This document shows, in pieces, positions 54,358 through 55,769 of a stretch of DNA of 64,000 nt; the first letter of the stretch is position 1, and each line of letters begins with the position of its first letter. Source of the stretch: Halomonas sp. A40-4. GTDB taxonomy: Bacteria > Pseudomonadota > Gammaproteobacteria > Pseudomonadales > Halomonadaceae. The DNA lies in the NCBI RefSeq assembly GCF_015767635.1, contig NZ_CP065230.1, positions 806,001 through 870,000 of the forward strand, read 5' to 3'. Below the pieces are notes generated by a model. The model was not told the DNA's origin. It did no database searches and saw nothing but the letters and a program-made list of their open reading frames with translations. The translations under genes were made by a program, and so were the position numbers.

Positions 54358-54639
54358 CTAGGCTAAGGCGGCGCTTTTTGAGGGCGTCGCAATGGGCACG
54401 CTCATGGCATCGATATTTGCGTAGCCCTTTTCAACCAGCGCAACCACGTCCGGGGATGAGCCCCAGCGCAACAGCATGGTGTCGATTAACTGTTCGGCTT
54501 CGTTAAAGCGGCCGCAGTGGCTAAGCAGCTTGGCCACGGTGTAATCGCAGGCGGGGGTGTCAAACATGTCGTCCTTGATTTCCTGAATGGCGAGTTGCAG
54601 TCCGGCCTGTGAAATCTCAATACGCTGTTCGCGTTGCAT
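54358..54639 (-). CDS. Small hypothetical protein (93 aa)
   Basis: A 93-residue soluble protein with no recognised domain. AGGAG lies 7 nt before ATG 54639. It is alpha-helical in character (RIEISQAGLQLAIQEIKDDM; VAKLLSHCGRFNEAEQLIDT), with a faint tetratricopeptide-like feel, and has a Ser/Ala/Pro-rich C-terminus. It is transcribed away from the sRNA locus. No function is proposed. Confidence 0.65.
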   Translation of the reverse strand: MQREQRIEISQAGLQLAIQEIKDDMFDTPACDYTVAKLLSHCGRFNEAEQLIDTMLLRWGSSPDVVALVEKGYANIDAMSVPIATPSKSAALA

Positions 54640-54964
54640 AGCACGTCTCCTTGTGAATGCGGGGTCGTCAATATCGGGCTCTGCCGATGTTTATTATGTT
54701 GTACCTATATTGTACGAGGTGGAGCCTATTATAATGCTTCTCATCGTGCGATAACCTGGGATATGCAAACGAAAGGTTATTGCAGATTCACCTTCCTGAA
54801 CAGCAATTGCCTTCAATTTTCTACCGCATTTATTTAAATAACATGGGTTTATATTTCAATGAAGGGGGCTGGAGTTATGAGCCTGGTAGTGTCACCCATG
54901 GTTCGCGTCCCAGTAAAAAATTTATGCAAATCTTTGCAATGTTGGCGGTTAGCATCTAAGGTTA

Positions 54965-55150
54965 CCGGTGTGTAGGACAAGGAATCGTCTGGCTCGCCAG
55001 GAAGGCAGGCTTACGGATAAGCCAGCAAGCCCGATAGGAAATCAAATGACAGGACGTCATACAGCACATGCCATGGAAAGGTATCCAGGAGGGATACAAA
55101 CGACAGGAAGTCGGTGAGATGCATGAAGGCCCCCGAGAGGGGGTTTTTTT
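54965..55150 (+). ncRNA. CsrB/RsmZ-like CsrA-sequestering small RNA
   Basis: Between the hypothetical gene and the phosphatidyltransferase lies a plus-strand string of short hairpins with GGA in the loops: TGT-AGG-ACA (54971), GCC-AGGAA-GGC (54996), GGCTTA-CGGA-TAAGCC (55008), GAT-AGGAA-ATC (55033), ATGAC-AGGAC-GTCAT (55046), GTATCC-AGGAG-GGATAC (55081) and CGAC-AGGAA-GTCG (55101), plus single-stranded GGA at 54980 and 55074. It ends in a GC stem and seven T. This is the structure of CsrB/RsmY/RsmZ RNAs, which bind many CsrA/RsmA dimers through stem-loop GGA motifs. The 5' end is approximate. I see no coding frame across it and no clear GacA-type TGTAAG-N6-CTTACA site; an inverted repeat TGCAAA-TC-TTTGCA (54925-54938) lies upstream. 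Confidence 0.85.
55130..55150 (+). terminator. Rho-independent terminator of the small RNA
   Basis: A five-pair GC stem (CCCCC at 55130-55134, GGGGG at 55139-55143) with a GAGA tetraloop is followed by seven T (55144-55150). It ends the plus-strand RNA; the minus-strand phosphatidyltransferase gene stops 5 bp beyond it. Confidence 0.9.
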
Positions 55151-55154
55151 GTGT

Positions 55155-55769
55155 CTAAACATCACGCCTAAGGGTGAGGTAACCGCCCCATAGCCGTGTG
55201 GTGGTGGTGATCAGGCAGGCCACCGCGAAAATACTGGCGAGTAGCGGGAAATGCTGAGGAAACAGGCAAAACACCACCAACGCAACAAAGGTTTCGGTGC
55301 CCTCGGTGAGCCCTTCCAGGTAGTAAAACGCTTTTGTCGGAAAGTCGGGCCGCTCGACGCCGCGCTGTTTGGCGGCAATCGCAAACGCTAGAAACGACGT
55401 GCCGGTGCCGATAAAGGTAAACAGCAGGAAAGCGGCAGCCAGGGCATTCTCTGCCGGGTTGGCCAACGCAAAGCCCAACACGACGGCTGAATAAAAAACG
55501 AAATCCAGACCGATATCCAGAAACCCCCCTGCCTCGCTCGTCTGGCCGCTCACCCGAGCCAAGGCGCCATCCAGCCCATCTCCCAGGCGATTCAACAATA
55601 CTGCCACCAAGGCAAGCGCGTAATGCTCCCATGCCAACAAGGGCAGAGCAGTGATGCCGATCAGGAAAGCGATAAAGGTCACCTGGTCGGGCGTGGCACG
55701 CCCGGTAAGCCGATGGGCGAGCCGTTCAAGTGGGCGATGGGTCAGGGGCATGGTCCAGCGGTCTAGCAT
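55155..55769 (-). CDS. CDP-alcohol phosphatidyltransferase family protein
   Basis: A 204-residue membrane enzyme with about six helices that joins an alcohol head group to a CDP-activated lipid (or related donor). The active-site motif DG-x2-AR-x8-G-x3-D-x3-D is present in RLGDGLDGALARVSGQTSEA with the final Asp pair in GGFLDIGLDFVFYS. The acceptor alcohol is unknown, so no gene symbol is given. It is convergent with the small RNA. Confidence 0.9.
   Translation of the reverse strand: MLDRWTMPLTHRPLERLAHRLTGRATPDQVTFIAFLIGITALPLLAWEHYALALVAVLLNRLGDGLDGALARVSGQTSEAGGFLDIGLDFVFYSAVVLGFALANPAENALAAAFLLFTFIGTGTSFLAFAIAAKQRGVERPDFPTKAFYYLEGLTEGTETFVALVVFCLFPQHFPLLASIFAVACLITTTTRLWGGYLTLRRDV

Follow-up and report, generated by a model that had tools for sequence, protein, structure and literature searches.

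Hairpin array and conservation of the predicted RNA

The stretch of DNA analyzed here, referred to as the window, comprises 64,000 nt of the Halomonas sp. A40-4 genome, and positions given without a contig are those of the window; G and L numbers are labels for genomes and loci, G000 being the A40-4 genome itself. At 54969-55150 on its plus strand, the window contains a predicted CsrA-sequestering small RNA of about 182 nt, the 5’ end of which was placed from a predicted promoter. The RNA sits between a gene for a 93-aa protein and a CDP-alcohol phosphatidyltransferase gene, both on the minus strand, and its terminator is on the plus strand. A preliminary description, made from the sequence alone, had read the region as a CsrB/RsmZ-like RNA with seven short GGA-presenting hairpins and, at its end, a GC stem and a run of seven T.

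Hairpins were counted by an explicit rule, under which they do not overlap, the stem has at least 3 Watson-Crick pairs, and GGA lies within a loop of 4-8 nt. This rule returned seven GGA-loop hairpins in series in 54969-55150(+), as had been described; the stems span 3-6 bp, and thus do not all fall in the 4-6 bp range first given for several of them. Ten GGA occur within 54962-55151, seven of which lie in the loops of these hairpins. All features of the array are on the plus strand, and conservation is given here by rows of an alignment of six orthologous copies. The GGA is present in 6/6 rows for hairpin 3 (55008-55023, loop CGGA, 6-bp stem), hairpin 6 (55081-55097, loop AGGAG, 6-bp stem) and hairpin 7 (55101-55113, loop AGGAA), and in 5/6 rows for hairpin 1 (54976-54989, loop AAGGAATC), hairpin 2 (54996-55006, loop AGGAA) and hairpin 5 (55046-55060, loop AGGAC), the outer two pairs of which are broken in 4/6 and 3/6 rows. 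Hairpin 4 (55033-55043, loop AGGAA) contains the sole pair changed on both sides (C-G to U-A). A further GGA between hairpins 5 and 6 (55075-55077), present in 6/6 rows, is unpaired in the structure used, and the counter places it in a 3-bp hairpin in 4/6 copies. The intrinsic terminator (55125-55150) is as first described; its core, CCCCC-GAGA-GGGGG, occupies 55130-55143, and the seven T run from 55144 to 55150.

The regularity of the array exceeds that expected of random intergenic DNA, as had been claimed. None of 10,000 dinucleotide-preserving shuffles reached seven hairpins, the maximum of six being attained once, and no more than four were found elsewhere in the 64 kb (12,764 windows of 186 nt, step 10, both strands). 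The folding z-score was -3.7 for 54960-55155, with 0/200 shuffles as good, and -2.8 for 54969-55150, with 3/200 as good.

A DNA search of 275 genomes of the family gave any match in 14, and in six of these, the A40-4 genome included, the match covered the RNA (E <1e-38). The five other carriers include G014 (Vreelandella arcis CGMCC 1.6494) and G258 (Halomonas sp. CUBES01). By the same counter, the six copies contain 7, 7, 7, 7, 6 and 6 GGA hairpins, with 8-10 GGA per copy. Taking the seven loops of the A40-4 structure across six copies as 42 cells, 39 retain the GGA. Identity across the copies was 95% in stems, 91% in loops and 80% in linkers. The conservation of GGA loops and stems that was to be looked for in related genomes is present in five of them. 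The copy in G013 is 29 nt longer than that of A40-4 and contains two additional GACAGGA units; it has lost the GGA of hairpin 1 and still totals 10 GGA and 7 hairpins.

A covariance model built from the six orthologues (R1) was searched against the 275 genomes with stricter filters, which lose some weak matches. Matches were obtained in 28 genomes; the six source orthologues scored 203-214 bits and, among the matches listed, every other one scored at most 34.1 bits. Nine of the 23 weaker places are GGA-rich RNAs (six in genus g27 and one each in G207, G219 and G279). The remaining 14 were dropped, nine being tRNA neighbourhoods and five other places. In G029, G027 and G023, the gap between the phosphatidyltransferase gene and the 93-aa gene contains no such RNA, and G009, G016, G018 and G035 have the phosphatidyltransferase gene with other neighbours, where R1 gives terminator-sized scraps or nothing. 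G032, a close relative, has neither the RNA nor the 93-aa gene at the locus, which would fit one later loss; its assembly is fragmented (about 3 Mb in about 280 contigs, 89% complete), and it is outside the eno tree described below. Another small GGA-hairpin RNA with a terminator was seen in G279 and G036 (L091:1585-1695 and L092), 2 of 82 same-genus genomes searched; no GacA box there matches more than 8/12 positions.

Predicted promoter region and Csr components of the genome

The dyad noted upstream of the RNA was found as TGCAAATCTTTGCA at 54925-54938 (TGCAAA-TC-TTTGCA), and is a candidate operator or activator site. It consists of 6-bp arms with a 2-nt spacer and recurs in 6/6 orthologues as TGCA[AG]ANNTTTGCA, with centres of TC, TG or AG; its distance to the predicted -10 is constant. 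The predicted -35 (TTGCAA, 54934-54939, plus strand) overlaps the right half of the dyad and reads TTGCA[A/T] in 6/6, and the predicted -10 (TAAGGT, 54957-54962, plus strand) follows the pattern TANNNT preceded by C, giving CTANNNT in 6/6; the spacer between them is 17 nt in 6/6. From this arrangement we infer a weak, regulator-dependent promoter that would start transcription near 54969. As a regulon signal the dyad was not enriched in the genome, with 7 places at up to one mismatch compared to 17 for a reversed control. The only other perfect dyad adjoins a gene that, judged by eye, encodes an ABC transporter ATPase; no GGA RNA was found at that site.

The GacA box was defined as TGTAAG-N6-CTTACA (PMC4950607) and scored over 12 positions. 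Up to 450 nt upstream of the dyad, the best match was 8/12 in the A40-4 genome and 9/12 in any of the six genomes; the dyad itself scores 8/12 in A40-4 and 7/12 in the other five. The remark that an obvious GacA/UvrY site is lacking upstream thus holds, and it is better founded than before, given that a conventional, GacA-box csrB exists elsewhere in this genome. A search of the A40-4 genome with up to one mismatch found the box at 11 places, six of them perfect, compared to six places for the reversed pattern and about 0.1 perfect boxes expected from the base composition of the window.

One of the perfect boxes (12/12) lies just downstream of eno, the identity of which was confirmed by a PF00113 match, and precedes the conventional csrB (L094/L118, G000:C1:714484 to about 714846). 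From box to end this RNA spans 344 nt and contains 11 GGA, 5 hairpins and an intrinsic terminator, and it gave no csrB-type Rfam match at E <=10 in the A40-4 genome. We compared eno loci from 30 chosen genomes, one locus per genome; 22 come from the 82 same-genus genomes and 8 from other genera. Eno is followed by a box matching 11/12 positions or more in 21/22 same-genus genomes (the exception being G009) and in 3/8 of the others, and the tail GGAGCGGGC plus a terminator follows in 19/22 same-genus genomes (not in G006, G012 and G009). The eno-linked box is present, together with the tail and terminator, in each of the six genomes that carry the window RNA. In a DNA tree of this one gene from the 30 genomes, the six carriers form one side of a branch with support 99/99.

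Two protein components of such a system were also found in the genome. CsrA is present in one copy and scores above two NCBIfam equivalog cut-offs (NF002469, 120 bits vs 73), and a UvrY/GacA regulator is encoded beside uvrC (NF007018, 289.4 bits vs a cut-off of 280). A GacS/BarA sensor was sought with one domain, PF09984, which we take to be the BarA sensor domain; it had no match in the A40-4 genome and, among 14 control genomes, matched only E. coli. For Halomonas anticariensis, the table of a 2020 review lists GacS-GacA and CsrA as present and the Csr/Rsm small RNAs as unknown (PMC7366521).

A second copy of the window RNA was sought in the A40-4 genome as three CAGGA close together. Of the 22 places returned, the 21 outside the window RNA reached at most four hairpins per 186 nt; the search missed the eno-linked csrB and so is not exhaustive, and further sponges may remain. 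On sequence grounds, the window RNA is a candidate for the second sponge of the genome, with the conventional eno-linked csrB as the candidate main one.

Eno-linked csrB is very large in the sister genus g27; in the two genomes measured (L114 and L122, in G075 and G073), it spans 896-897 nt from box to terminator (promoter region included), with 40-41 GGA and 18-21 GGA hairpins. L048, L049, L050, L054, L057 and L059 are grouped with these loci. In Rfam, the large csrB matched nothing but RsmY or RsmZ, weakly and under the gathering score. A csrB-like RNA located away from eno, at L058 (G219:C172), has an 11/12 GacA box and many GGA motifs in a long series.

A candidate second input to CsrA

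In this salt-tolerant bacterium, the region at 54969-55150 is, with high confidence, a gene whose product, a small RNA of about 180 nt, would sequester CsrA. The CsrB/RsmZ-like reading first proposed gains from the shuffles, from the five orthologues with GGA hairpins, from a weak full-length match to CsrB and from the presence of CsrA and UvrY/GacA. The repeats, the hairpins, the terminator, their conservation, the grouping of the carriers, csrA, uvrY/gacA and the second csrB-like locus are all seen in the sequence, and from them we infer transcription of the region, its start site, CsrA binding and control by something other than GacA.

Several observations weigh against this reading. The best Rfam match is to CsrB (RF00018, clan CL00106) and extends over all 356 model positions with an E-value of 2.7e-4 for 1,201 bases, but at 23.6 bits it is far under the gathering threshold of 71, so that the covariance check proposed earlier supports the kind of RNA and not its membership. 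At gathering, no Rfam family was found in the window, and a genome-wide search with RF00018 found nothing at E <=10. The compensatory stem changes that were to be looked for in relatives are nearly absent, with one pair changed in one cell, which 94/500 shuffles attain; because of this, support for the structure comes from conservation and unit repetition, not from covariation. A consensus promoter scan, which sets stricter demands, found no promoter, and the predicted -10 is poor. The RNA is present in only 6 of the 275 family genomes. Finally, GacA might itself recognize the dyad as a weak or atypical site, or might act indirectly or from afar. The window RNA is CsrB-like in make-up and is not an Rfam CsrB member by score.

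Comparison with known sponge RNAs gives partial likenesses. CsrB/RsmB (RF00018) shares the serial GGA hairpins and the intrinsic terminator, whereas its model has 356 positions and the window RNA has about 182 nt and 7 GGA hairpins. RsmX, RsmY and RsmZ of Pseudomonas share the GGA loops and small size, and the orthologue in L003 gave a weak RsmY match (E 0.045, 24.2 vs 57 bits); these RNAs are described as carrying an 18-bp GacA site upstream (PMC4950607), which is absent at the window RNA. RsmW of P. aeruginosa is reported to have seven GGA motifs and no GacA activation (PMC4950607), and in this resembles the window RNA as predicted; in contrast to RsmW, the window RNA appears to be free-standing, with 7 GGA hairpins and a conserved promoter dyad of its own. 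In Yersinia pseudotuberculosis, CsrC is described as being under PhoP and CsrB as UvrY-dependent (PMC4950607), a likeness to the predicted wiring here, in that a second sponge answers to another regulator. Pseudoalteromonas fuliginea has several sponges in one genome, Pf1, Pf2 and Pf3, one of them with only 9 GGA (PMC11882849); these were tested by gel shift and reporters, whereas the window RNA is a prediction.

By analogy to CsrB, RsmZ and RsmW, the window RNA would bind CsrA dimers and relieve their targets. Each GGA hairpin would be one CsrA binding site, and since each offers one site, one RNA could hold several CsrA dimers and thereby free CsrA-bound mRNAs. Another regulator may act at the dyad TGCAAANNTTTGCA, overlapping the -35, to govern the promoter, and a second signal could then free the targets of CsrA without involving the ancestral csrB beside eno. 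Because a GacA-wired csrB is already present in the genome, the simplest role for the RNA would be that of a second input to the same CsrA. The lack of a GacA box, the conserved dyad over the -35 and the grouping of the carriers on the eno tree thus point to an RNA that is probably clade-specific and separately wired, and it looks younger than the usual sponge. That one Vreelandella clade evolved a dedicated second sponge which bypasses GacA, through a regulator at TGCAAANNTTTGCA, is a proposition that we believe and doubt in equal measure, and its separate-input part, the absence of direct GacA control, is just as evenly balanced.

A CsrA sponge that is under UvrY/GacA after all, either through a divergent site at the dyad or indirectly, is a tentative alternative that we find rather unlikely. 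The best upstream GacA-box match in A40-4 (8/12) overlaps the dyad, and LetA of Legionella has a 14-bp site unlike the Pseudomonas one. However, the same genome has six perfect boxes, one of them before csrB, and because of these the usual box is presumably what its own GacA recognizes; the dyad, moreover, has 6-bp arms with a 2-nt spacer and reaches only 7/12 in the other five genomes. Less likely still is a sponge in which the dyad serves as an operator for a LacI-family or other metabolic regulator and would link carbon supply to CsrA. LacI-type operators occur before sugar transporters, and the only other perfect dyad is near the ABC transporter ATPase-like gene identified by eye, but a central CG is usual in LacI operators and the dyad centres here are TC, TG or AG.

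As far as the search went, what is new is the window RNA, its restriction to one species group and its apparent wiring, whereas sponges of this kind are already known. Among the papers listed in a search of mostly non-subscription literature on Csr small RNAs of Halomonas and Vreelandella, no report of either RNA was found. The analysis names two candidate Csr/Rsm RNAs in one genome of the Halomonas group, one with a classical GacA box and one without; neither reaches the Rfam threshold, so that both would go unnoticed in routine annotation. In E. coli, carbon storage is under the control of CsrA. Because of this role and because Halomonas bluephagenesis has been engineered for polymer production (PMC13414033), the pair of RNAs would be of value as a direct test of second-input wiring to the Csr system.

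Neighbouring genes and further GacA boxes

Both neighbouring genes lie outside the RNA. The 93-aa protein gene (54358-54639, minus strand) was assigned to no family, as it has no Pfam or NCBIfam match, and a relative of it adjoins the RNA in the five other carriers. The CDP-alcohol phosphatidyltransferase gene (55155-55769, minus strand; PF01066, 44.5 bits vs 22) is convergent with the RNA, and its stop is 5 nt past the T run. This arrangement bears on whether the region is an mRNA leader or a repeat element instead of a stand-alone RNA. Although the GACAGGANGTC units are repeated and vary in number, both flanking genes are on the opposite strand from the terminator and the 21 other CAGGA-triplet places in the genome reach no more than four GGA hairpins per 186 nt, which makes this explanation highly improbable. 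Chance or coding sequence is the least credible source of the pattern, as the 67-aa minus-strand open reading frame that overlaps the RNA, in a frame nearly stop-free here, is not kept in the five relatives, where, of about 184-189 aligned columns, indels leave between 0 and 67 in frame, and the hairpin count was unmatched by 10,000 shuffles.

A block, ATAACCTNNGATAT, at 54750-54770, about 160 nt upstream of the dyad, is kept in 6/6 genomes as judged by eye. It may be part of a promoter or leader that serves the 93-aa gene.

Five of the other GacA boxes in the A40-4 genome are upstream of type VI secretion genes, at L093 (G000:C1:415154), L095 (1595237), L096 (2228850), L101 (1130559) and L103 (2451838), three of them perfect and two with one mismatch. 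The sites are the gap between hcp and tssB/vipA and positions ahead of four vgrG-like genes, the one at L103 appearing to be split over two frames; hcp, tssB and three of the vgrG were confirmed with Pfam. Judged by eye, L095 and L096 have nearly the same sequence upstream. The placement of these boxes suggests that GacA controls the type VI secretion system directly, whereas a review describes Gac control as being via RsmA (PMC10482370).

Downstream of a perfect GacA box at L097, on the minus strand (G000:C1:2659685), and no more than about 150 nt away, is a short stretch with GGA; by eye, it closes with a terminator-like hairpin whose tip carries GGA. This is possibly a third, short Gac-driven RNA. 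The sixth perfect box, at L098 (G000:C1:2941433), is near a very short open reading frame and a gene that by eye resembles a metallophosphoesterase.
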